Origin: an uncultured Ignavibacteria bacterium
Lineage (GTDB): Bacteria; Bacteroidota; Ignavibacteria; SZUA-365
Reading direction: 5' to 3'
Assembly (NCBI GenBank): GCA_913061095.1
Contig: CAJXVM010000004.1
Coordinates: 191,556 to 252,517 of the forward strand
Length of the DNA stretch: 60,962 nt
Position 1 is the first letter of the stretch, and every line of letters starts with the position of its first letter. Shown here in pieces: positions 32,482 to 47,745 of the stretch. The notes below the pieces were generated by a model that worked only from the letters and a program-made list of their open reading frames with translations, did no database searches and was not told the origin of the DNA. Position numbers and translations under genes: made by a program.

Positions 32482-35400
32482 TCACCGCATAATGATCCGC
32501 ACTGTTTCCGTGTCTTCGCCATAATACAGGCGGCAGAAATACGTTCCACGTGCGTGTCCCGCTGCAGTATAGCGAACTGTATGACTGCCGGTGGGATACA
32601 TCCCTTCCGCGAGTGTCGCGACCTCGCGTCCGAGTTGATCATAGAGGATGAGCATGACGCTACCAGCCTCAGGTAAGCTGAAGCGTACATGCGCCTGATT
32701 CGCCATCGGGTTCGGATGCACGGTCAGCCGGGGCGTGCCCGGTATGGTCACCGCAGATTTCGGGCTGCTCTCGCAGGCGGTCATCACACTGTTTGCTGCG
32801 TCGAATGTATAGCCGGCCGCCTGGACATCGGTGACAGTGAAGCACCAGCTGGCGGACGGGCTTTTCTGTGCTGCTGTCGCGAGTGTTACTTCGCCGCTGC
32901 CATCCGTGCTGCCCGAGGTCGTGCCGGTATTGGGGCCGCTGTAGCTCGCACTGACAATTGCTCCCGGGACAGGTGCGCCCTGGTCGTCCTGTACGACGAC
33001 GACATCGCGTCCTTCCCAGCGGTCCGCTTTCTTCTGCACGCAGACACGCGTCACTGCCTGCGAGGCGATGACCATCGTGCCACTCGATGTGCCGCCGCTG
33101 ACTGTGATGGTGACATTGTCACTGGCTGTCGCAGTTGCATTGTCCGTGACCGTCAGCTGTGCAGTGTACGTTCCCGCAGAGCTGTAGATATGCTGCGGAT
33201 TTTCGAGCGTCGACATGTTTCCATCACCGAAATCCCATTCGTACGACACGATGCTGCCATCGGGATCGCTGGATCCAGCGGAGCTGAAATCCACGGTGAG
33301 GGGAACAGCGCCGGAGGTCGGTGACGCGCTGGCCACAGCATCGGGCGGCTGATTCTGCGGCAGGGATGTGCATGCTCCGAGCCGGGCTTCGCTGTCCCGG
33401 CTGAGTGTGCGCAGAACTTTCTTTTCATCCTCGCATTTGGTTACTCCGTTGACGCAGTACACGACCTCTGACAGGTTCGGTCCGCACCGGACATCGACGA
33501 CGTGGATGCGTACGGACGCGGTGCTGACAACATTGTTTGCATCCGTCACCGTGACGGAGTAGGTGGTCGGTGTCGTCGGAGATACGACAATAGACTGTGT
33601 CGGTTCGTTGGTGCTCCACTGGTAACTGCTGACCGCGGCGCCGCTGGTGCTGCCGGCAGTGAGCGTCAGAGACTGGGATCCGATGCCGAGATATATCGTA
33701 TGGTATTCCTGGTTCACTATCGTCTGTTCGGGTGATACACTGATGGTGGCGTAACGCAGGGGCGGTCCCACACCGCTCGACGTGAACGAGGCAAGAAATG
33801 CATCCGTGCGGCCCGCAAAATATGGTTGATATGCGTTGTCGATGGGAAGATTTGTGCTGTACGTCGCCCCGGACATGAAAACATTGCCTTCTCCATCAGC
33901 TCCGAGTCCCATCGACATGGACCATTCACCGGGGGACCCGCCATAGAATGTCACCCATTCAGGCATCCCGGTGCTTCCGTGTATTTTGCCGAGGAGAGCA
34001 TTTTTTTGCCCGGCATTAAATGACTGATGCGCATTGAGAAGCGGGATGGCACTGTTTGCGGTGATGCCGGCAAAGAGGACATCGCCATTGCTGTCGGAAG
34101 CGATGGCGGGGGCGTTATTCCCTTCTCCGTACTGAGGGGAACTGCCCGAGCAGTTGATATAGGTTCCCCAGTTGAGTGCTGTGCCGTTCGAACTCATCTG
34201 CACGACGAAAAAATCCGAATCCCCGCTCAGAGATCCCTGAAATGGTGCGGGCTGAGTCGGCAGAGGGAGATTGCTGCTGGATGTAATTCCGCACATCAGA
34301 ATGTCATTTGAAGGGGTGATCCCGAGATCCGCCCGCTCATTGCCGCTGCCTCCGTAATAGCTCGACCATTGGAGACTGCCGTTCGCAGAGAACTTTGCGA
34401 GCCAGAGGTCCGCCAGACCGCCTGATGATGTCTGGAATGCGCTTGCGGAAGTGGGAAGATTCGTGCTTTCGCCCTGCAATAACAAGACGATGTCATCGAA
34501 GGCGTCAACGACAATACCGTCACCGCCATCGATACCATTCCCACCGGCGAATGTTGCCCAGAGTGTCTGTCCGGCAGGAGACAGTTTTACGATGAAACCA
34601 TCTCTGTCGGATCCCATCACCGGTTGATATGCATTCGCAGTGACCGGTATGCCAGGGTCTGACGTTGCTCCGGTGATGACAGCGTTTCCATTTGCATCCA
34701 GCGCGACTTCAGGGGATCGCTCATATCCCGCTCCGCCGTAATAGGTGGACCAGCTGCGGATCCCGGCCGCATTCAGTGAGATGATGCACAGATCTTCAAG
34801 TTGCGAACCAGCCGGTACGGGCTGGACCGCATTCTGTACCGGGAGATCGCCGCTCGACGTGCTTCCAACCGTGATGCACTGTCCGTTTGCACCCACGGCA
34901 ATACGTCCGAAGCCTTCCCAGTCACTGCCGCCGAAATACGTCATCCATTCGACATCGCCTGTCGAAGAGAACTTCCCGATCACGAGGTCCGGTTCGCCGG
35001 TGCTTGCTGACTGCATACCATTCACGATTGGATAATGAGTACTCTGTGTGTCCCCTGTTACATAGATGTTCCCGGTCGCATCGATATCGAGATCGGCAAA
35101 TTCATCTGACTCCGAAGAACCATAGTATGTCGCCCAGGGATCGATGATGAGGGTGTGGGTGGCGCTGTAGCGGCCGACGTCGAAGGTAAGAATGTCGTCG
35201 CGGAGGCGGTAGGACGAGCGTACTTCGCGGCCGTTGTCTTTGTAGGTGTACGGCTGCGCTTCCTCGATGTATCCGAGCGGAGAATGTACTTCCATCGCGC
35301 CGCCGGGGAGCAGGGCGAGCCGGCTCGCGCCGCTGTAGCGCATGGCGATATCTGAAGGATGCCCGCCGGGATGCACGCGGTACTCGTATTTGAGGCGTCC

Positions 35401-35907
35401 CTCGCGGGACATGAACACGAGGTCGATGTTGTCGTACACATCCTCATAAACCACGGTGGCATAGCTCTTCACGTGGGTGATGCCGTCGGGACAGTGCGCG
35501 AGATAGTAGTTGGAATATCCCGGCAATTCATCCTCGAAACGGATGCGGGGGAAGGGATTGGCACCGACGAGTTCCATGTCCATCCGGTGCATGCGGGTTT
35601 CGCGCGGGGCGGTTTTTGCGAAGCCGTCCTGCGCGGGTTCGGTCGCCGCCGTGGCCGGATCGGAGTCGGCGAAGACGTAGCTGACGCCGCGGTCGCTGAA
35701 GTAGAGCCGCGCGCCCGCGCCTTCGGCGACAAAGCGGATGTCATTGCGCACCGCTCCGCGCGTGTCGGCGATCTGGCCGCGGTTTTCGGTGAAGCGGATG
35801 CCGCGGTCGCCGGGCACGGTGTCGTCGGCACCGGATGTGCTGGCCCCTGAACGGGCGCACAGGGAGATGATGAATACTGTCACGAGAAGGGGAAATAATC
35901 GTTGCAT
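32482..35907 (-). CDS. secreted SBBP-repeat propeller/PKD protein with T9SS tail (copy 1)
   Basis: 1141 residues from the ATG at 35907 (GGAGAG 6 bases upstream). Signal peptide 1-23. Residues about 30-258 are an N-terminal domain (IRFTENRGQI, then DNIDLVFMSREGRLKYEY, ending IDPWATYYGSS) common before SBBP propellers. About 259-710 are SBBP blades (WMTYFGGSDWE, GNAVITGATSD, WSSYYGGSGNE). An Ig-like piece follows (about 730-830), then a PKD domain (about 853-945, SSDPDGSIVSYEWDFGDGN) and a carboxypeptidase-D-like or Ig domain. The last 85 residues (HPNPMANQAHV, LYDQLGREVATL, GTYFCRLYYG) are a T9SS sorting domain. The first 260 residues are almost identical to those of the second copy at 43269. 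It should be displayed on the surface. Confidence 0.9.
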   Translation of the reverse strand: MQRLFPLLVTVFIISLCARSGASTSGADDTVPGDRGIRFTENRGQIADTRGAVRNDIRFVAEGAGARLYFSDRGVSYVFADSDPATAATEPAQDGFAKTAPRETRMHRMDMELVGANPFPRIRFEDELPGYSNYYLAHCPDGITHVKSYATVVYEDVYDNIDLVFMSREGRLKYEYRVHPGGHPSDIAMRYSGASRLALLPGGAMEVHSPLGYIEEAQPYTYKDNGREVRSSYRLRDDILTFDVGRYSATHTLIIDPWATYYGSSESDEFADLDIDATGNIYVTGDTQSTHYPIVNGMQSASTGEPDLVIGKFSSTGDVEWMTYFGGSDWEGFGRIAVGANGQCITVGSTSSGDLPVQNAVQPVPAGSQLEDLCIISLNAAGIRSWSTYYGGAGYERSPEVALDANGNAVITGATSDPGIPVTANAYQPVMGSDRDGFIVKLSPAGQTLWATFAGGNGIDGGDGIVVDAFDDIVLLLQGESTNLPTSASAFQTSSGGLADLWLAKFSANGSLQWSSYYGGSGNERADLGITPSNDILMCGITSSSNLPLPTQPAPFQGSLSGDSDFFVVQMSSNGTALNWGTYINCSGSSPQYGEGNNAPAIASDSNGDVLFAGITANSAIPLLNAHQSFNAGQKNALLGKIHGSTGMPEWVTFYGGSPGEWSMSMGLGADGEGNVFMSGATYSTNLPIDNAYQPYFAGRTDAFLASFTSSGVGPPLRYATISVSPEQTIVNQEYHTIYLGIGSQSLTLTAGSTSGAAVSSYQWSTNEPTQSIVVSPTTPTTYSVTVTDANNVVSTASVRIHVVDVRCGPNLSEVVYCVNGVTKCEDEKKVLRTLSRDSEARLGACTSLPQNQPPDAVASASPTSGAVPLTVDFSSAGSSDPDGSIVSYEWDFGDGNMSTLENPQHIYSSAGTYTAQLTVTDNATATASDNVTITVSGGTSSGTMVIASQAVTRVCVQKKADRWEGRDVVVVQDDQGAPVPGAIVSASYSGPNTGTTSGSTDGSGEVTLATAAQKSPSASWCFTVTDVQAAGYTFDAANSVMTACESSPKSAVTIPGTPRLTVHPNPMANQAHVRFSLPEAGSVMLILYDQLGREVATLAEGMYPTGSHTVRYTAAGHARGTYFCRLYYGEDTETVRIIMR

Positions 35908-36037
35908 TGCACTCTCCAGTTTGCTGTATGATCGAATCGCGGACCTGCTTATTCGGAGTGGATTCCACACAGCATCCCTTCACTGCGCTGAGGGAGCTGC
36001 GGAGTTTGGAGAGGCGATGTAAATAGAAGACGCGAGT

Positions 36038-36083
36038 AATAAAAGGAATGGAGAAGGTGCGGACAATCGGTATCACTACGTAT
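36038..36083 (-). promoter_or_regulatory. promoter and activator-like site of SBBP gene 1
   Basis: Minus strand: ATAC (36083-36080), six bases, ATACCG (36073-36068), one base, TTGTCC as -35 (36066-36061), 17 bases, TTTATT as -10 (36043-36038). The layout matches those at 46401-46446 and 46918-46963 base for base. Expected start near 36031, giving a leader of about 124 bases. Confidence 0.7.
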
Positions 36084-36131
36084 TTTCGTACGCAGGAATA
36101 CAGATGGTCAGTATGCGCAGGGATCCCGTGG

Positions 36132-39100
36132 TCAGTCGGCAGACGCCGCTCCCCTGGTGATTACCTGTGCCGCTGCCGCTTCTTTGAACGGCAGTCGTAT
36201 ATGCAGTTGTGTACCTTCGTTGCGGGCGGAGGTCACGGTCATGGTGCCACCGAGGATGGCGGCGCGTTCCTGCATGCCGCGCAGGCCCATGCCGTCGCCA
36301 TTGCCGCCGTTTTTTCCCGATATGTCTGGTATTCCTTTGCCATTGTCTCGGATCGTGATCGCGAGTTCGCCGTCCGCAAGGCGGGCACGCACCTCGGCAT
36401 ACTCCGCGCCGGCATGACGGATGACATTGCTGATGCCCTCCTGCACGATGCGATAGATCAGGATTTCCGCTTTCTTATCGAGCAGGCCGTCAATCGGATC
36501 AATGTCCGTCTCGATGCCCCGGGGCAGGGAGTGCTGCGCTTTCTGCACTACGGAGCGCAGTGTGGCAGCCAGACCGAGGCGGTCGAGTTCCGTCGGACGC
36601 AGGTCATGGGAAATCTCGCGCACGGTGTTCATCGCCGCGCCGGTCATGCTGATGACTTCGTCGAGCTGGCGATGCAGTTCTTTCCCATCGCCGGATTTCT
36701 GCGCCGCGAGCATCGCGCGGTTCTTGATGACCACGAGCTCCTGTCCGAGGCTGTCGTGCAGGTCGCCGGCGATGCGCTGGCGTTCCTGTTCCTGCGTCTC
36801 GATCAGGCGGCGGGTGACCGCGCGCTGCATGTCTTTCTCACGGCGCGCATGCGCGGCGGCGAGTCGGTGCTGTTCGGATTTTGCGGCGGCGGCCTTGTAT
36901 TCCGCGGCATCGGCGCGGAGGGCGGCCTCGCGGCGGCGTCCCTGGATGCGGCGGTACACGAGCCAGGCGATAATGAGCGATAGCAAGAGGGCTGCGGCGA
37001 GTCCCGTGATCAACGCCTGGTGGCGGCCGAGCGTGGCCTGCTTGAGGGCGCTGCGCTGTTTCCACAGCGCGGCCTCGCTGCTGTCTTTCGCACTGCTGAG
37101 CCGTTGCATATGCAGTGCACTTTCTTTCTGGACAAGTTCAAGCTGCTGGATTTCGTTTTCGCGCTCGAGCAGGAGCAGATCCTGTCTTCGCCGCTCATCG
37201 AGCAATGCGCGGCGCTGCAATTCATCCTTCTGCTGCCGGAGCCGGAGCCGGTCGATGGATTTCTGCTTCTTCAGCAGTTCGATTTCCCGTTCGCGCTGGG
37301 CGGTTTCGTAGCGGACGTTGAGTTCCTGCAGGGCATTGACATGCTTTGCACTCTGCAATGAGTCACGCAATGCAGCATATCGCTGATGGTATGCAAAAGC
37401 GCGTTTGTAGTCTCCCCGCCGCTCAAGGTCGATTGCTGCGTCGCGGCAGAAATCCCGCAATCCTTCCGGATCATCGACCGTATTGTACAGGTGCAGCGCC
37501 AGTGCGAGAGTGTCGTATGCGCCCGATCGCCCGAGCTGAAGGAGTGCCCGGCCGATCGTGCCGGTCAGTCGTGTGATGGTCTCCCGGTGGTCGTGCCGGT
37601 GGTTGTGCTTCTGCCGATACGCGAGTGCAGCGCGCAAGTGCTGCAGCGCCTTTTGCGGTTGATGCAGCTTTGTCAGCAGGAAACCCATATTATGGTGACA
37701 TCGTGCGATATCCGTTTTCAGGCCGCATTGTTCAGCTCGTGCCAGGAGATCTGAATACTGATCCAGTGCGGTCTGCAGATCCTCGATTGACCCGGTTCCG
37801 GAACCACGATCGAGATGCAGGCTGGCTGGGCCGTGCAGAAATTCAATACACATCATTTCCGTGCCGATTTTCTCGATGATGTGTATCGCTCTGTTGTAAT
37901 AGTTCAGCGCCACGTCCCAGTTCTCCAGTTTCCTGTTCACCCTGCCAAGGTGCCAATACAAAATGGCGTGGTTATGGGTCACTTTTTCACGCGGCAGAAG
38001 CTTTTCGGCCTCGAGGAATGACTCGCGGGCATGTTCGTAACGATGATGATTGAATTCAAACTGTCCGTAGTTCAGCAGCCCGCAACGGTGGAAGTAATGT
38101 GACCCCATTTTTTTTGCCAGTTCGAACGATCGATGATAGGCTTGGCGGGCCTCATCGTATCTCTCCTGTGCGCGATAATTCGTGGCCAGTGCCATCCAGT
38201 TGAGAATCAAATGCGTCGTATCGCGCAGTTTTTTGTATCGCGCAATTCCATTGTGGAAATATGGTTCCCCCGCCTTCGGGTTCCCGCGGTTGCTTACCGA
38301 GACACCGAGAAGCACAAGAAAGGATGCGGCTGTAACCTGATCGTTGATCGTTTCGGCAATGTGCATGCATTCCTGCCCGATCTTGAATGATGTTGCGTAG
38401 AGGTTTCTCCGACTGTGGTTGACTGCCAGATCGCTCATCGCCCTCAGTTGCCGGGCGGAGTCACCGGCATCCGCTGCGAGGTCACGGGCCTTCGAGAAAT
38501 ACTCACATGCCTTCTCCCGATTGCCATTCCATCCTGTTAATTCGCCGAAGTAAACATGAAGAATACTGCGGCTGCGTTTACCGCCGCAGCTGTCGGACAG
38601 CGCCCATGCCTTCGCGAAGAGGTCTTTGACCTCAAGGGCCGTTCCATCGATTGGTCCAGTCAGCCGGACCATCCACAGAGAATTCGCCAAGCGGGAGAGC
38701 GCTTCAATGCGCTCGTCACATGTGCCCGCCGCATTGAATTCCTTTACGGCCTCGTGAAAATGTTGTACGGCCGGTTGCCATCGCTGCTGCCGCTGCATGA
38801 GATAGCCGAGATGATACCGCACGTGTCCCAGCATTCGACTGTCGGCCGCCTTACCCGCCAGTTCCAGTGCGTGCACGAGATACTCATGACTTGCATTATA
38901 ATGAGCAATACGCACTTCAAGAACGGACAGACCGCAGAGCGCCTTTACCTGCCCTGCGGCATCTTTCGCGCGTTTTGCGAAATGCAGCGCCTTTTCGAGA
39001 TGCATGCGCACACGCGTGCCGCCTTCTCGAGGAAGTAACGCCTCCGCTATGGCATTGTGAATCTCTGCGAGAAGACGGGGCGAGGTGCGAGAAGTACTTC

Positions 39101-39326
39101 TATCCAGCGCCTCGAACGCCGCGGCAGCCGCACCCGGAACATTATTCGGGAGGAGTACCGCGAAATTACGGAGAAGCTGTCTGATACGTGCCGTGTCCGT
39201 TTGCACCGGGGATGTCATGACGGCACCGTCCGTGCCCGAATTTGCTGCCTCAGGAAGCGATGTGACCGGCAGCAGGAGAACGCAGAGGATTGCGCTCAAA
39301 CGGATATGTCCTTTGCATCTGATCAT
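36132..39326 (-). CDS. TPR sensor histidine kinase, NarX/DegS type (copy 1)
   Basis: 1064 residues from the ATG at 39326, preceded by GGAGG at 8 bases; a further upstream ATG at 39416 would overlap the neighbouring kinase gene. A signal-like first helix leads into about 600 periplasmic residues of TPR-type helical pairs (for example HVRYHLGYLMQRQQRWQPAVQHFHEAV), a long charged coiled coil (about 680-770), one membrane helix (772-794), a HisKA_3 dimerisation domain with His857 (AGDLHDSLGQ) and a HATPase_c domain (NVIRHAG, DNGKGIPD, GMGLRGMQER). Kinases of this class phosphorylate NarL/LuxR regulators. It follows the second kinase by 43 bases in one operon. The ligand may be a protein or peptide bound by the TPRs. 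Confidence 0.9.
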   Translation of the reverse strand: MIRCKGHIRLSAILCVLLLPVTSLPEAANSGTDGAVMTSPVQTDTARIRQLLRNFAVLLPNNVPGAAAAAFEALDRSTSRTSPRLLAEIHNAIAEALLPREGGTRVRMHLEKALHFAKRAKDAAGQVKALCGLSVLEVRIAHYNASHEYLVHALELAGKAADSRMLGHVRYHLGYLMQRQQRWQPAVQHFHEAVKEFNAAGTCDERIEALSRLANSLWMVRLTGPIDGTALEVKDLFAKAWALSDSCGGKRSRSILHVYFGELTGWNGNREKACEYFSKARDLAADAGDSARQLRAMSDLAVNHSRRNLYATSFKIGQECMHIAETINDQVTAASFLVLLGVSVSNRGNPKAGEPYFHNGIARYKKLRDTTHLILNWMALATNYRAQERYDEARQAYHRSFELAKKMGSHYFHRCGLLNYGQFEFNHHRYEHARESFLEAEKLLPREKVTHNHAILYWHLGRVNRKLENWDVALNYYNRAIHIIEKIGTEMMCIEFLHGPASLHLDRGSGTGSIEDLQTALDQYSDLLARAEQCGLKTDIARCHHNMGFLLTKLHQPQKALQHLRAALAYRQKHNHRHDHRETITRLTGTIGRALLQLGRSGAYDTLALALHLYNTVDDPEGLRDFCRDAAIDLERRGDYKRAFAYHQRYAALRDSLQSAKHVNALQELNVRYETAQREREIELLKKQKSIDRLRLRQQKDELQRRALLDERRRQDLLLLERENEIQQLELVQKESALHMQRLSSAKDSSEAALWKQRSALKQATLGRHQALITGLAAALLLSLIIAWLVYRRIQGRRREAALRADAAEYKAAAAKSEQHRLAAAHARREKDMQRAVTRRLIETQEQERQRIAGDLHDSLGQELVVIKNRAMLAAQKSGDGKELHRQLDEVISMTGAAMNTVREISHDLRPTELDRLGLAATLRSVVQKAQHSLPRGIETDIDPIDGLLDKKAEILIYRIVQEGISNVIRHAGAEYAEVRARLADGELAITIRDNGKGIPDISGKNGGNGDGMGLRGMQERAAILGGTMTVTSARNEGTQLHIRLPFKEAAAAQVITRGAASAD

Positions 39327-39369
39327 GGTATAATCCTCCATTCCATAGTAGGACTCGGCGCTCGCCATG

Positions 39370-42300
39370 TCATTCTTCATCCTGTTGCAGAGAGAATCGA
39401 TCCTCCGACGGTACATGATCTTTCGTGACCGCAGGAACGTCGGTCAGCGGCAGTCGTATATGCAGTTGTGTACCTTCGTTGCGGGCGGAGGTCACGGTCA
39501 TGGTGCCGCCGAGCATGGAGGCGCGCTCCTGCATGCCGCGCAGTCCCATGCCGTCGCCCTTCCCGCCGTTGTTTCCCCACGCGGATGAAAATCCCTTCCC
39601 GTCATCAATGATCGTGATCGCAAGTTCTTCGTCTGCGGTGCGTACGCGTATTTCCGCGTGCGTCGCTTCCGCGTGACGGATCACATTGCTGATGCCCTCC
39701 TGCATGATGCGGTAGATGATTATCTCGGCTTCCGCGTCGAATAATCCGTCTATCGGATCGATGTTGGCGTCGATGCCGCGGGGCAGGGAGCCCTCTGCCT
39801 TCTGTGCAACGGTGCGCAGGGTGGCGGTCAATCCGAGCCGGTCGAGTTCGGTCGGCCGCAGATCGTGTGAGATTTCGCGCACGGTGTCCATTGCCGCGCC
39901 GGTCATGCTGATGACTTCGTCGAGCTGTCGTTTCAGTTCCTGCGCGTCTCCGGATTTCTGAGCGGCAAGCATGGCGCGATTCTTGATGACCACGAGTTCC
40001 TGGCCGAGGCTGTCATGCAGATCGCCGGCGATGCGCTGCCGTTCCTGCTCCTGCGTCTCGATCAGGCGCCGGGTGACCGTGCGCTGCAGTTCTTTTTCAC
40101 GGCGTTCTTGTGCGGCGGCGAGACGGTGACGTTCGGATTCAGCGGCGGCTGCCTTGTATTCCGCGGCGTCGGCACGCAGGGCAGACTCGCGGCGGCGTCC
40201 CTGAATGCGGCGGTAGACGAGCCAGGCGATCACGAGCAGCAGCAGAAGGGTGGCGGAGAGTCCGGCGATCAGCAGCTGCTGGCGGCCGAGCGTGGCCTGT
40301 TTCAGTGCACTGCGCTGTTTCCAGAGCGATACGTCACTGCTGTCTTTTGCACTTCTGAGCTGCTGCATATGCAGTGCGCTCTCTTTTTGCGCGAGTTCCA
40401 GCTCCTGGATCTGGTTTTCGCGTTCAAGGAGAACGATGTCCTGCCTATTTCTTTCGGCCTCGAGCTGACGCCGCAGGAGCTCATCTGCCTGATGTTTCAG
40501 TTCAAGATTCTGAAGAGCTCTTTCCTGCTCAAGGGCAGAGACACGGTGCTGACTGCGCTCCGTTTCATACCGGATCATCAACTCGTTGAGATGGCGTTCA
40601 TTCTTTTCACTCCCCACGCTATCGATATGTTCACTGTACCGAAGATGCGCTTCATACGCGCGTGATGAATCCTCCAATGCTGCATATACCGTATGCAGCC
40701 TCGATAGGACACAAGTGATGACTTCACTGTCACCCAGTTGCTGAGCGAGTTGGAGTGCTGCTTGAAAATAACCGAGAGCAGTTTCAGGTCTGCCGGTCCT
40801 CTGATAGCACCACCCGAGATTACAGAGTGATTTTGCTTTCTGCGGCAGTTCTCCTCGTTTGTCTGTAAGACGGAGCGCTCGTTGCAGATAGTGTAAGGCC
40901 TCCGTGAATTTTGACTGCGCTAAATATATGCCACCGATGTGACTGCATGTCGACGCATCGATTGCAGCAAATCCATGCGTCTCAGCCAGCTGTAGGGCGG
41001 AGTCAAGGTGTGCCAGCGCCTCAGGGTATGTATTTTGTTTGCCGAGCACAAGGCCGATATTGGAATGGCATACCGCTATTCCCTTTGAATTCTGGAGTCC
41101 GCGATGGATAGCAAGCGCCCTTTGGAAATGATCCAGCGCTTTGGAAAACGAACCGTTCCTTGTATAGATGACCCCGATATTTACCAGGCAATTCGCGATC
41201 TGGTATTTAATTCCAAGTTGTTCATAGATGCGCCTCGCTTCCCGGTAATATCTCAGAGCGTTTGCCTCTTCTCCCGATTCAACGGCTACGTTTCCAAGTC
41301 CGAATAGTGAACGGGCGACCTGTTTTCTGTCATCCGTATCCTTGGCAAGTTTCAGGCTGCGTTGCAAAGTCATTTTTGCGTCGGCGTACGCTCCACGTCT
41401 TCTGTGGATTGTGGATATGTTACCCAGCTGAGTCGCAACTCCGCGATGATCCCCAAGTTGTTCATAAGCCTGGAGCGCCTGCCGATATTTTTCGAGTGCC
41501 GCTCTGTATTGCCCCTGTACATGAAGGATGTTTGCAACGTTGCCAAGTGCAACCGCTACGCCTTTCGTGTCATTGAGCTGCTTCGAAAGATCCATACTGA
41601 TACGATAGTGCTTCAGCGCTTTCGCATTGTTGCCTCTGCGGAAGTACACAATCCCAATATCGAGATAGCAGCGAGCGATTCCTTTTTGATCTCGAAGCTT
41701 TTCAAACAGCGATAAACTTTTACGATAATGGTCCAGCGCTTCATTGTAAAAGCCTTGAATGCGAAGGATAATGCCAATATGACGGTGCATCTCGGCGATG
41801 CCGAATGTATTTATTATTTCATCATGCACATCCAATGCTTTTTGAAAACAAAGCAACGCGCTCGAATATTTCCCCAGATCACGATACATAATGCCCATGC
41901 GCGATAGCACACGAGCGAGAATACGAGCCTTTCCCTTTCTTTCCACGTACGGCAGGAGTTGGTTATAATATTTCAGCGCACGATTATGATTCTCTTGTTG
42001 ATAATTGATATCCCCGATTCCCAGGAGGGATTGAGCAATAAGGGCGGAGTCACGAATTGCCTCAGCCAAATGCAAACTTTTTGTGTAGTATTCCAGCGCC
42101 TTTGCCTGACGCTTCAGTTTTGCATAGGTATATCCAATGTGAGTATGAACCTTAGCGAGGAGGGGGCGATTGTTCGATCGCTCACAGATATCCGCACATT
42201 TATGGAAATATTGTAATGCAGCTGACAATGAGTCGATCCACAGCGCACACCAGCCCATCATGGCGTAGGTCTTCGCTCGTGCATTTGGAAGCACGGAATA

Positions 42301-43065
42301 CGTCGATGCGATTGAACTCAGACATCCTTCGTGCAGCGGATTACGCTTCAGTTCCTCCAATAATGTCGCAGCATTCCTGTACTGTTGAAGGGCGATATGG
42401 TAGTTGTGCTGTTTCGCATTGATGCCCGCGATACGGATCCAGATGTCTGCGGCAGATCGTCTCCTGTTGAGGGATGTGAGTAATGCCTGGCTTTTATGAA
42501 ACGATACAAGCGCCTTATCGTCATCTCCCTGGGTATTGTATACCTTTCCGATGGTCGCTAATACAACCGCTTCTCCTTCCCTGTTCTCTGCTGCTCGCAT
42601 CATCGGTAGGCTATTGTGAAGAAATTCTAGAGCCTTTCCGTACCTCTGTAAATAATAGTACATGGTTCCAACTCTGTACAAGGATGCAGCTGCCTCAGAA
42701 AAGAGTCCTAGACTGTCGTACATGCGGTGGCTGTGTAAGAAGTACTCCAAGGCCTGCTTTGTGTTGCCGGATTTGGCACTTAGCAAACCGAGAAGATAGG
42801 ACGCCTGGGCAACATCGTGGGAATGATGATATTTCCGAGCGAGCAGGTGCGCCTTCCGGGCATGAAATCGAGCTGTGTCATCGGCATCACAGAAGTATGC
42901 CTGTACCTTGTTCAGATGCCATGCTATCTTTGTGCGGATTTCATTCGAGGACGACTGCGCTGTTCTTCCTGTGTCGGAAGGTATACGCCCCTGTGCCATG
43001 AGTTCCCAGGCAGCGAACCACAGTATCAAAATTGTAAAGCAAAGAATGAAGCTTTTCGAGCACAT
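39370..43065 (-). CDS. TPR sensor histidine kinase, NarX/DegS type (copy 2)
   Basis: 1231 residues from the ATG at 43065 (AGAGG 5 bases upstream; 43104 is an alternative without a site). Signal-like helix 1-25, then about 780 residues with some 18-20 TPR units (ALKYYNQLLPYVERKG, ALDHYRKSLSLFEKL and many more), a coiled coil, a membrane helix (about 932-954), HisKA_3 with His1017 (AGDLHDSLGQ) and HATPase_c (NVIRHAE, DDGKGFSS, GMGLRGMQER). From the membrane helix on it is nearly identical to the next kinase, while the TPR regions differ in length and sequence. Its AT-rich TPR coding region contrasts with the GC-rich kinase part. A strong promoter lies 43 bases upstream. Probable partners are the two regulators at 46.5-47.7 kb. 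Confidence 0.9.
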   Translation of the reverse strand: MCSKSFILCFTILILWFAAWELMAQGRIPSDTGRTAQSSSNEIRTKIAWHLNKVQAYFCDADDTARFHARKAHLLARKYHHSHDVAQASYLLGLLSAKSGNTKQALEYFLHSHRMYDSLGLFSEAAASLYRVGTMYYYLQRYGKALEFLHNSLPMMRAAENREGEAVVLATIGKVYNTQGDDDKALVSFHKSQALLTSLNRRRSAADIWIRIAGINAKQHNYHIALQQYRNAATLLEELKRNPLHEGCLSSIASTYSVLPNARAKTYAMMGWCALWIDSLSAALQYFHKCADICERSNNRPLLAKVHTHIGYTYAKLKRQAKALEYYTKSLHLAEAIRDSALIAQSLLGIGDINYQQENHNRALKYYNQLLPYVERKGKARILARVLSRMGIMYRDLGKYSSALLCFQKALDVHDEIINTFGIAEMHRHIGIILRIQGFYNEALDHYRKSLSLFEKLRDQKGIARCYLDIGIVYFRRGNNAKALKHYRISMDLSKQLNDTKGVAVALGNVANILHVQGQYRAALEKYRQALQAYEQLGDHRGVATQLGNISTIHRRRGAYADAKMTLQRSLKLAKDTDDRKQVARSLFGLGNVAVESGEEANALRYYREARRIYEQLGIKYQIANCLVNIGVIYTRNGSFSKALDHFQRALAIHRGLQNSKGIAVCHSNIGLVLGKQNTYPEALAHLDSALQLAETHGFAAIDASTCSHIGGIYLAQSKFTEALHYLQRALRLTDKRGELPQKAKSLCNLGWCYQRTGRPETALGYFQAALQLAQQLGDSEVITCVLSRLHTVYAALEDSSRAYEAHLRYSEHIDSVGSEKNERHLNELMIRYETERSQHRVSALEQERALQNLELKHQADELLRRQLEAERNRQDIVLLERENQIQELELAQKESALHMQQLRSAKDSSDVSLWKQRSALKQATLGRQQLLIAGLSATLLLLLVIAWLVYRRIQGRRRESALRADAAEYKAAAAESERHRLAAAQERREKELQRTVTRRLIETQEQERQRIAGDLHDSLGQELVVIKNRAMLAAQKSGDAQELKRQLDEVISMTGAAMDTVREISHDLRPTELDRLGLTATLRTVAQKAEGSLPRGIDANIDPIDGLFDAEAEIIIYRIMQEGISNVIRHAEATHAEIRVRTADEELAITIIDDGKGFSSAWGNNGGKGDGMGLRGMQERASMLGGTMTVTSARNEGTQLHIRLPLTDVPAVTKDHVPSEDRFSLQQDEE

Positions 43066-43107
43066 CTTGCCTCTCTCAACGTACAATATTTGGAGGAATA
43101 ACACATA

Positions 43108-43136
43108 ATAATACAGTATTATCCGATCAATGTCAA
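43108..43136 (-). promoter_or_regulatory. strong sigma-70-like promoter of the kinase pair
   Basis: Minus strand: TTGACA (43136-43131), 17 bases, TATTAT (43113-43108). This is the closest match to the canonical promoter in the window. Start near 43101, leader about 36 bases. It lacks the ATAC-N6-AYACCG element. Confidence 0.75.
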
Positions 43137-43164
43137 TAATTGATATTCACGGGATGAGAGATAT

Positions 43165-43202
43165 CGAATCACGGGAGCAATGTACATCGCTCCCGTGATT
43201 CG
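43165..43202 (-). terminator. 38-base near-perfect inverted repeat after SBBP gene 2
   Basis: CGAATCACGGGAGC (43165-43178) pairs with GCTCCCGTGATTCG (43189-43202); even the loop contains ATGTACAT. No T-tract follows on either strand, so it could be a Rho-linked or processing stem, or an end of a lost element. Confidence 0.5.
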
Positions 43203-43268
43203 CACTTCCATGCTAACATAGTGTCAGGATTCCGGTGCGTTGAATGACATCATTCCTCGGGTCTTGAT

Positions 43269-46268
43269 CTATTTCAGCAGAATCTTGCTTGTCGTGATTT
43301 TTCGTCCGGCGTACATGCGGCAGAAGTACGTCCCGCGCGGCAATCCGTCGGCGGTGAACACGGCGGTATGCGTTCCGGCGGGGTACGATCCCTCGGTGAG
43401 CGTTGCCACCTCGCGTCCGACGGCGTCATAGACGATCAGCATGACCTCGACTGCCTCCGGCAGGGTGAAGGAAACCTGCGCCTGCTGCGAGAGGGGATTG
43501 GGACTGACGCGCAGCTGCAGCTCCCCGGCCACTGCATTAGAATATTTCGGCATGTTGTCGCACACTTCACCGACGAGGTTCGCGGCAGACTGGTAGGTGT
43601 AGCCCGCAGCCTGGATATCGGATACGGTGAAACACCAGGGCGCGCTTGACCGGTATCCCTTCGGCGTCTGCAAAATGACCGTCCCGCTGGCATCCGTTAT
43701 ACCGCTTACCGTGCCACTCGAGTATCCGGTATATGATGCTGTGACAGCCGCGCCGCTGACCGGCTGACTGGAATTATTGCTGACTGTGATTTCCGCTTCA
43801 CCGTAATCGAAATTTTTATTGATGACGATTCGTGAGACGGTCATCGCGGAAGCATAGACAATCCCGCTTGTGCTGTATGGGGTCACAGTCACTGACGCGG
43901 AGGCCGACAGGTTTCCATCATCCGTTACAGTAAGCGTCGCGTCGTACGTTCCTGCATTCGTATACATGTGTGAAGGATTTGCCATCGTTGCTGAATTGCC
44001 ATCCCCGAAATCCCAGTACCACGAAGTGATCGTCCCGTCGGGATCATTCGATCCTGCGGAGCTGAATTGCACTGTCAGGGGAACGGTGCCCGAGGCCGGC
44101 GTCGCGCTGGCGACAGCGACTGGGGGCTGATTGTAGCCGGGCAGCTGACCATTGGGATCGAGCTGTGCAACAAAGGCGTCACCGATGTTGTTCAGCGTAC
44201 TTTGATAGGCACCGAGAATGGGGAAATCCGTACTGGCCGTGCCGCCCGCGATTATGACGTTGCCGTTCGCATCTGCCGCGATCGCCTCGGCGCGTTCCGT
44301 GGCGCTTCCCCCGAAATATGTTCCCCATATCTGGTTTCCGCTCGCATCAAATTTTGTAACGTATGCATCGGTTCCTCCTGCTTTCGACATCTGAAAGGCG
44401 CCAGTCGAAACGGGCATGTCGCTGCTGTATGTCTGGGATATCAGAAGAAGGTTATTTCCGCCGTCCATGCTGAAATCACCGGGGAACTCATAATCTTTTC
44501 CGCCGCAGTAGGTGCTCCACAGGATCGCTCCGGCATCTGTGAACATGCAGATGTAGGCATCGATTCCTCCTCCCCCGTATGATTGCTGAAACGCACCCGA
44601 AGAGACCGGAAAATCCAGGCTACTTGTCCATCCGCCAACGGCTATGTTTCCATTCGCCAGAGTGCTCACGAGAACCTTGCCTCCTTCATTGTCACTGCCG
44701 CCGAGATACGTAGCCCAGGATCTCGTTCCGGTGCTCGTGAATTTGATGATGTATGCATCCCAGCCACTTCCCGTCTTCGAGGATTGAAACGCACCCGAAG
44801 TGACGGGGAAATTATTGCTTACTGTTCTGCCCGATGCGATGACATTGTTGGCGGCATCGACGGCTATCCCTCTGCCGACGTCATCATCCTTTCCGCCATA
44901 GAGCGTGGTCCATACCGGCATGCCGGAAGCATTGAATTTTGAGATAAACGTGTCATAGGCATTCCCTGAGGCCAGACCTGTCTGAAAGGCTCCCGTTGTT
45001 GTGGGAAAGTTGTTGCTGTTCGTCAGGCCGGTGTGCACAACATTATTCTCGTTGTCTACTGAGACATCCCAAATTTCATCTTCCTTCTTTCCCCCGACAT
45101 AGGTTGCCCATAAGCGCGTCCCATTCATATCAAGTTTGACAAGAACGGCGTCGTCACCACCGCCGGGTGCAACGTTCTGGAACGCATTGGCGGTCACGGG
45201 AAAGTCCGTGCTGACGGTGGCGCCACCGAAATACACGTTGGCGAAATCGTCGACAGCACTTTGAGCAGAGAATTCCTGGAGGCTGCCCCCGTAATATGTC
45301 GCCCACTGAAGAGTACCATAGCTATCGAATTTTGCGATGAATAGATCAAGCGCCCCTCGACGGGTACTTTGAACCGCACCGGAGGACAATGGAAAGTTAT
45401 CGCTGGCAGTCTGGCCCGTGACGTACACATTGTTGTACGTATCCGTGGCCACATCTGTCGCAACGTCGAAGTCACTCCCCCCGAAATACGTCGACCATGG
45501 ATCGATGACGAGGGTGCGCGTGGCGCTGTAGCGGTCGACGTCGAAGGTGAGGACGTCGTCGCGGAGGCGATAGGACGAGCGCACTTCGCGGCCGTTGTCC
45601 TCGTAGGTGTACGGTTGCGCTTCCTCGATGTATCCGAGCGGGGAATGCACTTCCATCGCGCCGCCGGGCAGCAGGGCCAGCCGGCTCGCGCCGCTGTAGC
45701 GCATGGCGATATCGGAAGGACGACCGCCGGGACGCACGCGGTATTCGTATTTGAGGCGTCCCTCGCGGGACATGAACACAAGGTCGATGTTGTCATACAC
45801 ATCCTCGTAGACCACGGTGGAGTAGCTTTTCACATGCGTAACACCATCGGGACAATGCGCAAGATAATAGTTGGAATACCCGGGCAGTTCATCCTCGAAG
45901 CGGATGCGGGGGAAGGGATTGGCGCCGACGAGTTCCATGTCCATGCGGTGCATGCGGGTCTCGCGCGGCGCGGCTTTCGCGAAGCCGTCCTGTGCGGGTT
46001 CGGTCGCAGCCGTGGCTGGATCGGAGTCGGCGAAGACATAGCTGACGCCGCGGTCGGTGAAGTAGAGCCGCGCGCCCGCGCCCTCGGCGACGAAGCGGAT
46101 GTCGTTGCGCACATCGCCGCGCGTGTCGGCGATCTGTCCGCGGTTTTCGGTGAAGCGGATGCCGCGATCGCCGGGCACTGTGCCGTCCGAGTCGAACGTG
46201 CCGGCTCCTGCATCGGTGCACAGAGCAATGGCAAAGATTGTCACGAACAGGGAAAAGGACCGTTTCAT
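43269..46268 (-). CDS. secreted SBBP-repeat propeller/PKD protein with T9SS tail (copy 2)
   Basis: 999 residues; GGAGAG precedes the ATG as in copy 1. Signal peptide 1-21. N-terminal domain about 27-258, nearly identical to copy 1 (DRGIRFTENRGQIADTRG, then EDVYDNIDLVFMSREGRL). SBBP blades about 259-706 with a more regular unit than copy 1 (WATYVGGKKEDEIWDV, GNIAVGGWTSSLDFPVSSGAFQQ), then PKD (about 712-800, SNDPDGTITSWYWDFGDGN), a carboxypeptidase-D/Ig-like domain with SGAAVTASY, and a T9SS sorting domain (SPNPLSQQAQVSF, YDAVGREVATLTEG, GTYFCRMYAG). It lacks the Cys-containing Ig-like segment present in copy 1. Expected on the cell surface, where such propellers bind partners or substrates. 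Confidence 0.9.
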   Translation of the reverse strand: MKRSFSLFVTIFAIALCTDAGAGTFDSDGTVPGDRGIRFTENRGQIADTRGDVRNDIRFVAEGAGARLYFTDRGVSYVFADSDPATAATEPAQDGFAKAAPRETRMHRMDMELVGANPFPRIRFEDELPGYSNYYLAHCPDGVTHVKSYSTVVYEDVYDNIDLVFMSREGRLKYEYRVRPGGRPSDIAMRYSGASRLALLPGGAMEVHSPLGYIEEAQPYTYEDNGREVRSSYRLRDDVLTFDVDRYSATRTLVIDPWSTYFGGSDFDVATDVATDTYNNVYVTGQTASDNFPLSSGAVQSTRRGALDLFIAKFDSYGTLQWATYYGGSLQEFSAQSAVDDFANVYFGGATVSTDFPVTANAFQNVAPGGGDDAVLVKLDMNGTRLWATYVGGKKEDEIWDVSVDNENNVVHTGLTNSNNFPTTTGAFQTGLASGNAYDTFISKFNASGMPVWTTLYGGKDDDVGRGIAVDAANNVIASGRTVSNNFPVTSGAFQSSKTGSGWDAYIIKFTSTGTRSWATYLGGSDNEGGKVLVSTLANGNIAVGGWTSSLDFPVSSGAFQQSYGGGGIDAYICMFTDAGAILWSTYCGGKDYEFPGDFSMDGGNNLLLISQTYSSDMPVSTGAFQMSKAGGTDAYVTKFDASGNQIWGTYFGGSATERAEAIAADANGNVIIAGGTASTDFPILGAYQSTLNNIGDAFVAQLDPNGQLPGYNQPPVAVASATPASGTVPLTVQFSSAGSNDPDGTITSWYWDFGDGNSATMANPSHMYTNAGTYDATLTVTDDGNLSASASVTVTPYSTSGIVYASAMTVSRIVINKNFDYGEAEITVSNNSSQPVSGAAVTASYTGYSSGTVSGITDASGTVILQTPKGYRSSAPWCFTVSDIQAAGYTYQSAANLVGEVCDNMPKYSNAVAGELQLRVSPNPLSQQAQVSFTLPEAVEVMLIVYDAVGREVATLTEGSYPAGTHTAVFTADGLPRGTYFCRMYAGRKITTSKILLK

Positions 46269-46400
46269 TGCACTCTCCAGTATGCTGTATGATCAAATCG
46301 TGGGTTCGCTCGTTGGGAGGGATTTTCATGCACCGCACTCCGCCAATGCTGGGATCGGCAATGCGGAATTGGAGAGGCAATTGGACCAGGAGACGAATAC

Positions 46401-46446
46401 AATTAATGAAATGGTGATCGCGCAGACAATCGGTATCACTGCGTAT
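46401..46446 (-). promoter_or_regulatory. promoter and activator-like site of SBBP gene 2
   Basis: Minus strand: ATAC (46446-46443), six bases, ATACCG (46436-46431), one base, TTGTCT as -35 (46429-46424), 17 bases, TTAATT as -10 (46406-46401). Same geometry as the copy at 36038-36083, although the leader sequences in between have diverged. Confidence 0.7.
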
Positions 46447-46477
46447 TTGTATCGGTACTCCTACCGATGCGGCGCAA

Positions 46478-46843
46478 TCAGTTCTGCCCCGTCCGCGTAT
46501 GCAGCTGGCGGAGGTAGCTCCGCAGACCTAAGAGATCGTCCTTGAGGTAATACGCTGTGGCACCGGCACGCAGCGCAGCGGTCCGGTATGCGTCATCATC
46601 ATGCTGGGTGACAATGACGACGGGGATGTTGCGGGAGAGTGCGCGGATACGCCGGGTGGCTTCGATGCCGTTCATGCGCGGCATGCTGATATCCATCAGC
46701 ACAAGGTCGGGAGGGAACTGTCTGCACAGCGTATATGCCTCGAGTCCGTCATGGCACTCAATGACATCGTCGCACAGCATCTCCATCATCTCATGCATGA
46801 GACGCCGGACGTTGCTGTCATCTTCGGCAATAAGAATGCGCAT
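46478..46843 (-). CDS. receiver-only response regulator, CheY/NarL-receiver type
   Basis: 121 residues from the ATG at 46843, with AAGGAG 5 bases upstream. It is one receiver domain: acidic residues in AEDDS (7-9), phospho-acceptor D51 in LVLMDISMPRMNG, a threonine in VIVTQHDDD and Lys in YYLKDD. The sequence is NarL-like, but it ends where the helix-turn-helix would start, so it has no DNA-binding output of its own. It may compete for phosphate, act as a sink, or pair with a protein. The LuxR-type regulator ends 188 bases upstream on the same strand, and its promoter carries the shared island element. Likely a target of the TPR kinases; inferred from position only. Confidence 0.9.
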   Translation of the reverse strand: MRILIAEDDSNVRRLMHEMMEMLCDDVIECHDGLEAYTLCRQFPPDLVLMDISMPRMNGIEATRRIRALSRNIPVVIVTQHDDDAYRTAALRAGATAYYLKDDLLGLRSYLRQLHTRTGQN

Positions 46844-46917
46844 GTAACTCCTTGCTGATGTCGGGAAGAGCCGGCAGGAGGGACAGCGGATCAATCCAAA
46901 AACCGGGGGCCTGAACT

Positions 46918-46963
46918 AATAAAGCCGAGCATGACACAATCGTCAATCGGTGTTGATACGTAT
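46918..46963 (-). promoter_or_regulatory. promoter and activator-like site of the receiver-only regulator
   Basis: Minus strand: ATAC (46963-46960), six bases, ACACCG (46953-46948), one base, TTGACG as -35 (46946-46941), 17 bases, TTTATT as -10 (46923-46918). Leader about 68 bases. Confidence 0.7.
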
Positions 46964-47031
46964 TTTTTCATCTCCCGGCGGGAAGCATGCAGGCTGGAGA
47001 ATGCCTTGCGAGGGGAAATGCAGAGGGAAGA

Positions 47032-47697
47032 TCAGAGGAGATGCCTGTTCTGAAGGGCGAAACGGACGAGTGCATAGGATCCGCGAAGGTCAAGTTTCTG
47101 CGAAATGTGTGCCCGATGCGTATCGACGGTCCGTGTACTGATGCTGAGTATATTGGCGATCTCACTGGTGGTTTTGTCCTCGCCGATGAAGCGGAGGATT
47201 TTCCGTTCGGAGGGTGTCAGCTCCGAAAAGCGCGAGGGAATTGTGGGAGCGTTGTTCTGCCTGCGCTGCTCGAGCAGAGCTTTCGAAGCCATGCTGCTGC
47301 TGAAAAAGTACTCACCGCGCAGCACCTTGCGCACACCCTGTACGAGATCGGTGACGGCGGCGTCTTTGAGAACATATCCCGTCACGCCGTATTCCATCGC
47401 CTGGTTGAACATCTCCGCGCTGTCTGTGATGGTCAGGATGAGCATTGCCGTGTCGAGCCGGTCACGATTCACAACGGCCGCGACATCGAGACCCGACATT
47501 TCGGGCATGTCGATGTCGATGATGGCGACGTCGGGCTGATGCGCACGGATGCATTCGAGCGCCTCGACGCCATTTTCACATTCCGCGGTAATCTGGAAGG
47601 AGCGTTCATCCTCAAGTATCTCGCGCAACCCCTTCCGCACGATCGGATGATCGTCGGCGATGACGATGGAGACGGACTTGCCCTGAGTGTGCTGCAT
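47032..47697 (-). CDS. NarL/FixJ-family response regulator with LuxR HTH
   Basis: 221 residues from the ATG at 47697; the longer open frame upstream has no receiver-like sequence. Receiver domain about 9-130 with acidic pair DD at 15-16, phospho-acceptor D61 in VAIIDIDMP, a threonine in LILTITD and Lys in YVLKDAAV. A LuxR-type helix-turn-helix covers about 155-215 (LTPSERKILRFIGEDKTTSEIANILSISTRTVDTHRAHISQKL). Once phosphorylated it should dimerise and bind direct or inverted repeats near promoters. HisKA_3 kinases like the two nearby TPR kinases normally pair with this class, and it is the best local candidate to bind the ATAC-N6-AYACCG element. A copy of that element precedes the gene, suggesting autoregulation. 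Confidence 0.92.
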   Translation of the reverse strand: MQHTQGKSVSIVIADDHPIVRKGLREILEDERSFQITAECENGVEALECIRAHQPDVAIIDIDMPEMSGLDVAAVVNRDRLDTAMLILTITDSAEMFNQAMEYGVTGYVLKDAAVTDLVQGVRKVLRGEYFFSSSMASKALLEQRRQNNAPTIPSRFSELTPSERKILRFIGEDKTTSEIANILSISTRTVDTHRAHISQKLDLRGSYALVRFALQNRHLL

Positions 47698-47725
47698 CAG
47701 ATCCGTTGTGAATTGCGAGCGGTAC

Positions 47726-47745
47726 CAAACGGTATTGAAAAGTAT
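47726..47745 (-). promoter_or_regulatory. fourth copy of the ATAC-N6-ATACCG-N-TTG element
   Basis: Minus strand: ATAC (47745-47742), TTTTCA, ATACCG (47735-47730), T, TTG (47728-47726). It lies 29 bases before the LuxR regulator ATG. No -10 is visible at the expected distance, so it may act as an autoregulatory site or need another start. Confidence 0.5.

Follow-up and report, generated by a model that had tools for sequence, protein, structure and literature searches.

Escherichia coli NarL activates the ogt promoter from a site that is centred at -44.5 and adjoins the -35 element, with a second site upstream, and at yeaR a NarL site adjoining the -35 element activates as well (PMC7419079). 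For ComA of Bacillus subtilis, inverted repeats favour a 4-bp spacer, while a direct repeat performs best at the class II position (PMC4797271). In Porphyromonas gingivalis, control of the type IX secretion system (T9SS) by PorX-PorY-SigP has been described for the secretion machinery (PMC4800418).

Here, we analysed a stretch of 60,962 nucleotides from an uncultured Ignavibacteria bacterium (the window), in which a gene cluster combines two-component genes with genes for T9SS-secreted SBBP proteins, and in which one motif recurs next to the -35 elements. Judged from the sequence, this element is, with a probability of about 0.72, a cassette-specific operator of a NarL/FixJ-family regulator, and the local regulator would activate from it in class II fashion.

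The gene cluster and its predicted promoters

All genes of the cluster lie on the minus strand. In the order of transcription they encode a NarL/FixJ-family response regulator (47032..47697), a receiver-only response regulator (46478..46843, Response_reg), SBBP1 (43269..46268), two TPR histidine kinases (HisKA_3; 39370..43104 and 36132..39416) and SBBP2 (32482..35907). The regulator, our proposed binder, scores over the gathering threshold for both Response_reg (1.2e-25) and GerE (7.3e-14) and is thus of the NarL/FixJ type; its recognition helix reads RTVDTHRAHI. SBBP1 and SBBP2 both comprise DUF7948, SBBP, PKD and a T9SS sorting tail, with 31.3 and 32.4 bits, respectively, for the sorting domain TIGR04183 (cut-off 23). 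A simple hydropathy scan places two hydrophobic segments in each kinase, one near the N-terminus and one ahead of the kinase part, and from these positions the TPR region of both kinases is probably periplasmic.

The original prediction had located the motif ATAC-N6-AYACCG-N-TTG on the minus strand at 36083, 46446, 46963 and 47745 and had regarded it as a promoter element in four copies. The strings were found as described. When the whole 4.6 Mb genome was searched with the exact pattern, 4 matches were listed, all of them inside this one 12 kb cluster, while the reversed pattern, used as a control, delivered 0 matches. Since only about 0.3 matches would be expected genome-wide by chance (our own arithmetic from the base composition), this clustering is far beyond chance.

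For three of the four sites (36083, 46446 and 46963) the sequence suggests credible promoters. Operator 1 (ATACGTA-GTGA-TACCGAT, 36066..36083, minus strand), which is preceded by AAA (36084-36086), lies upstream of SBBP2. The predicted promoter (36038..36066) consists of TTGTCC (36066-36061), 17 bp and TTTATT (36043-36038), and its -10 offset is that of the operator family described below. Upstream of SBBP1, operator 2 (ATACGCA-GTGA-TACCGAT, 46429..46446, minus strand) is followed by a putative promoter (46401..46429) with TTGTCT (46429-46424), a 17-bp spacer and TTAATT (46406-46401). Operator 3 (ATACGTA-TCAA-CACCGAT, 46946..46963, minus strand) precedes the receiver gene, whose promoter (46918..46946) would comprise TTGACG (46946-46941), again 17 bp, and TTTATT (46923-46918). 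All these words and spacers are as previously reported; the -10 words at the window sites are poor.

The promoter claim fails for the fourth site (47726..47745, minus strand), a mere string match without such a -10 word. With 2 of 7 inverted pairs and recovery by neither of our models, including its absence from the output of model R2 in a 78 kb scan, it was ruled out as an operator and judged to lie outside the family. The string overlaps the -10 word of a different pair of promoter-like words on the minus strand, TTGCAC-N17-TACTTT (47767-47739), probably the promoter of the NarL regulator gene. A counterpart pair, TTGCAC-N17-TACATTT, is present in the related genome G004, where the motif of the fourth site is absent. 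Upstream of the NarL gene no convincing operator was found.

Exactly 22 bp upstream of site 2 lies a distal operator that had been overlooked before, the perfect palindrome ATCGGTA-GGAG-TACCGAT (46468-46451, strand-neutral). Two tandem operators about 22 bp apart, like those of SBBP1, also occur in other cassettes (L158:3641-3663, minus strand, and L205:3366-3410). The leaders of the two SBBP genes, supposed to have diverged apart from the motif, align end to end and share a second, nearly identical block, GATCATACAGCAnACTGGAGAGTGCAATG, which is located at the ribosome-binding sites (minus strand, 35905-35940 for SBBP2 and 46266-46300 for SBBP1). Consequently, sites 1 and 2 are duplicates of each other. 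The GATCATACAGCAnACTGGAGAGTGCAATG block represents either shared translational control or a trace of the duplication.

An orthologous cluster is present in G004 (contig C197), which belongs to the same genus and whose regulator is 73-74% identical. Related sites were found there before the kinase gene (L150:4587) and before the receiver gene (L150:8168), and the latter is preceded by the palindrome ATCGGTA-N4-TACCGAT, matching the arrangement of the window. Both G004 sites, neither of which had been available to the original prediction, are followed by WWATT (in ATAATT and CAAATT) at an offset identical to that of the window -10, an agreement with a chance of 0.0065 each at a given position, in two intergenic stretches.

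An operator family before T9SS cargo and two-component genes

With only 4 matches listed, the exact motif was ruled out as a genome-wide regulon. Relaxed to two mismatches, it gave at least 144 matches in the genome, compared to at least 43 for the reversed control; these and all further genome-wide minima may be lower bounds, as scoring covers the best 150 candidates. The one-mismatch matches that we inspected lie apparently in coding sequence and provided no lead. In 60 relatives, the exact motif occurs as scattered single matches, and the inspected ones are apparently coding as well. The expected enrichment upstream of T9SS cargo and sensor genes is seen for a wider operator family, not for the exact motif.

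This family emerged when the promoters of paralogous cassettes were compared without using the motif. About a dozen such cassettes, built from a NarL-type regulator, a TPR kinase, a receiver and an SBBP surface protein, are present in the genome, and further arrangements of this kind exist in related genomes. In the paralogous cassettes, the corresponding position is taken by 18-bp palindromes particular to them, for example AATAGGCAGGTCTGCCTATT (C18), AAATGGGTAnGAACTCCCATTG (C18 and C19), AAATAAGGGATACCCCTTATTG (C29, identical in G004:C361) and ATCRGTAGNNCTACYGATGC (C24, C5 and the genomes G001, G002, G004 and G009). The motif of the window is one variant of the genome-wide family, which has the form AAA, an 18-bp quasi-palindrome (7-4-7) ATnnGnA-N4-TnCnnAT, and TG; seventeen bases separate the -35 hexamer from the -10. 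The final base of the operator is the first T of this hexamer. At column 44 of the alignment, 30 of the 42 sites have a T, and at column 48 this holds for 32 of 42. A loose pattern of the family matches the genome at least 89 times, its reversal at least 11 times.

The two arms co-vary symmetrically across the family. Since G-U pairs are invalid for a DNA palindrome, symmetry was recounted with strict Watson-Crick pairs: the four variable positions form 113 of 168 possible pairs, against a mean of 86 after shuffling, and none of 5000 shuffles reached as high a value. If the arms are slid out of register, pairing drops from 90% to 29-46%.

To the window, we applied a covariance model (R2) whose training left out all sites of the window and of G004:C197. 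Its E-values, which are rough owing to a short calibration, refer to the 78 kb scan: site 1 (26.6 bits, E 9e-6) and site 3 (24.7 bits, E 4.5e-5) were recovered clearly, site 2 weakly (13.6 bits, E 0.33), and the palindrome of the window with E 0.15, with no other match in the window. The G004 sites were recovered with E 1.6e-4, 0.015 and 0.016. After all of these came a single further match at noise level (E 3.4).

The distribution of the operators is restricted to one family. Model matches comprise at least 35 operators in this genome and at least 94 in 11 other genomes of the same family; these at least 129 matches in 12 family genomes compare to at least 22 in 19 others, so that genomes outside the family average roughly one. 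Within the genus, the five genomes contain at least 35, 18, 12, 20 and 13 sites, and elsewhere in the family the number ranges from 0 to 13. The match G001:C22:16769 was set aside as part of a local tandem repeat.

The operator family is associated with T9SS cargo and two-component genes: the genes downstream mostly encode T9SS-secreted proteins, receivers or histidine kinases. This supports the original view of an element adjoining the -35 that ties SBBP and T9SS cargo to two-component genes. Among the 18 matches of this genome outside the training set of model R1, 8 stand before T9SS-tail proteins and 2 before TPR kinases; a neutral ceramidase and small secreted proteins are among the products encoded downstream of the others. 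In the sister genome G001, 5 of 12 non-training matches precede T9SS-tail proteins. For two more, the downstream protein shows, as judged by eye, the subtilisin-like protease motif GTSMAAP; 2 others belong to genes of that same family of small secreted proteins, and 1 stands before a receiver. At a base rate of 7%, the enrichment of T9SS-tail genes has a binomial p of about 1e-5 in this genome and about 1e-3 in G001, where the base rate is our own estimate of 4-7% of genes.

Some of the strongest operators precede genes for small secreted proteins of 136-143 aa, which contain a VxSCDGDI-like motif and are without a Pfam or NCBIfam match (L306:10829-11248, minus strand; L309:2022-2453, plus strand); relatives of them are found downstream of operators in L349 and L352. 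The largest sub-family of operators, AAAATRGGTGGTACCACCYATTGACA, stands before TPR kinase, neutral ceramidase and T9SS protein genes and has -35 boxes close to the consensus (minus strand: L308:5350-5406, L311:9119-9175 and L312:10505-10561; plus strand: L313:1424-1480, L315:1769-1825, L318:7701-7757 and L318:12939-12995). ATCRGTAGNNCTACYGATGC marks a second regulon, which is present in five genomes from two genera and whose operators precede T9SS-tail, SBBP, receiver and FISUMP genes (L159:6498, L160:7823 and L160:12996 on the plus strand, L160:7495 and L204:2695 on the minus strand, with further loci in L205, L206, L207, L208, L209, L210 and L213). On the plus strand, the palindrome of the window (46451-46470) matches ATCRGTAGNNCTACYGATGC without mismatch. 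Finally, at L088:2772-2910 and L152:8147-8295, a receiver gene and an SBBP gene are arranged divergently, and the operators in the gap point in both directions.

Proposed regulator and mode of action

The operator spans about -52 to -35. As it ends on the first T of the -35 hexamer, the centre of a bound dimer would lie near -43. If the -10 words are correctly assigned, this is class II geometry, i.e., an operator that adjoins the -35 element with its centre at about -40 to -45, and the parallels to ogt and ComA speak for class II activation, with the NarL-type regulator of the respective cassette as the probable activator. We therefore envision the following scenario. A dimer of a phosphorylated regulator, most likely the product of 47032-47697 driven by the two TPR histidine kinases, would occupy the operators of SBBP1, SBBP2 and the receiver gene and bring in RNA polymerase by a class II mechanism; at SBBP1, the site 22 bp upstream would accommodate another dimer. 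The operators of the different cassettes have diverged at their inner positions, apparently in step with the regulators, and every cassette would thereby control a surface protein of its own. Binding by the NarL regulator, activation by it and insulation of the cassettes from each other are what we infer.

An operator that overlaps the -35 element might also serve repression, in which case the local NarL regulator, or a different protein of its family, would block this element. Several sub-families carry near-consensus TTGACA, and the boxes of the AAAATRGGTGGTACCACCYATTGACA sub-family in particular would suit a repressor. However, the poor -10 words of the window and the second site 22 bp upstream at SBBP1 are what activation predicts, and we consider repression unlikely.

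The proposed link to the NarL-type protein draws on the recognition helices. In the regulator tree, arms ending in GAT accompany VD[T/S]HR recognition helices in two clades that lie apart, whereas for the sister of the window clade, with EKHR in its helix (RTVEKHRSNI), the candidate operator is another one and lacks the GAT arm; this pairing is based on few independent events, and the deep forks of the tree are weak. For the nearest paralogous cassette, C1, with a regulator 53% identical, there is a weak candidate operator (C1:234469) that is absent from the R1 list. The palindromes might instead be bound by a regulator of another family, in line with the largest sub-family, AAAATRGGTGGTACCACCYATTGACA, being without an assigned regulator. 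Yet operator variants track the cassettes and the recognition helices of their regulators, and size and spacing fit dimers of the GerE type, which makes a foreign binder improbable to us, about as much as repression.

According to the original prediction, tandem subunits of an activator would touch two ATAC words 10 bp apart on one face of the DNA, beside the -35. The three window sites do have this period: they hold 5, 5 and 4 of 7 direct matches, compared to 5, 4 and 4 inverted ones, so that these sites by themselves favour neither arrangement, and ComA, which belongs to the same superfamily, is known to use a direct repeat at the class II position (PMC4797271). However, that repeat has a period of 11 instead of 10, the G004 receiver site shows 5 of 7 inverted pairs but only 2 of 7 direct matches, and the mean over the 42 sites is 5.6 of 7 inverted pairs versus 2.4 of 7 for a direct repeat of period 10. 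Because the G004 site and the family mean favour it, the inverted repeat is the better general description, and a direct-repeat activator is somewhat less likely still than the two preceding alternatives. A mixed direct and inverted use as in ComA is possible at the window sites. That the motif has no function and its copies resemble each other merely by gene and leader duplication is very improbable: sites 1 and 2 do lie in duplicated leaders that still align throughout, but site 3 and the two G004 sites precede other genes that otherwise share little, the arms of the palindromes co-vary symmetrically, and the same form stands before unrelated T9SS genes.

Going beyond class II activation by the local regulator, one might speculate that the roughly one dozen lineage-specific cassettes are self-contained, that operators and recognition helices have co-diverged into insulated private regulons, and that the combination of ..GAT arms and VD[T/S]HR helices was reached twice. 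This wider picture is plausible to us, though we advance it tentatively and give it a little less than even odds.

Taken together, expression of surface proteins in this T9SS lineage is suggested to be organized in a set of paralogous two-component cassettes, each with operator variants of its own, and the operator model is concrete and searchable, with at least 35 sites here and at least 94 in 11 related genomes. If the proposed binding is true, the cassettes represent a natural experiment on how the DNA specificity of response regulators diversifies once genes are duplicated, as a single genome offers many pairs of regulator and operator and sister species offer the orthologues.

Comparison with described systems

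Protein families, operator style and promoter geometry are of known kinds. Cassette-specific NarL-type operators at T9SS cargo promoters were not found in the open-licence literature searched. The closest parallel is given by NarL at ogt and yeaR-yoaG (7-2-7), where a NarL-family regulator is likewise combined with inverted heptamers that adjoin the -35 and are centred near -44, and where, as in the window cluster, a second site upstream is optional (PMC7419079). In contrast to the 7-2-7 site TACYNMT-N2-AKNRGTA (PMC7419079), the window operators have a 4-bp spacer and reversed heptamers, AKNRGTA-N4-TACYNMT. By analogy, the window operator would thus work like a 7-2-7 site but is not one. Many paralogous variants in a single genome and T9SS cargo as targets further distinguish it from the E. 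coli NarL promoters (PMC7419079). ComA shares the DNA-binding superfamily, the inverted repeat with a 4-bp spacer and sites near the -35, whereas its recognition element is another one and its direct repeat at the class II position has a 5-nt spacer (PMC4797271).

On the side of signalling, FimS-FimR of P. gingivalis resembles the cluster as a histidine kinase with periplasmic TPRs and a response regulator that switch on a surface-protein gene cluster (PMC5706477); however, FimS-FimR is one system for fimbriae, while the cassettes described here number about a dozen, have operators of their own and would serve T9SS-tailed proteins. With 211.6 and 69.2 bits, the kinases of the cluster stay far below the FimS equivalog cut-off of 600. 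PorY-PorX-SigP, too, is a two-component control connected with type IX secretion, but it targets the genes of the secretion machinery through an ECF sigma factor (PMC4800418), whereas in this genome individual cargo genes are preceded by operators of the NarL type.
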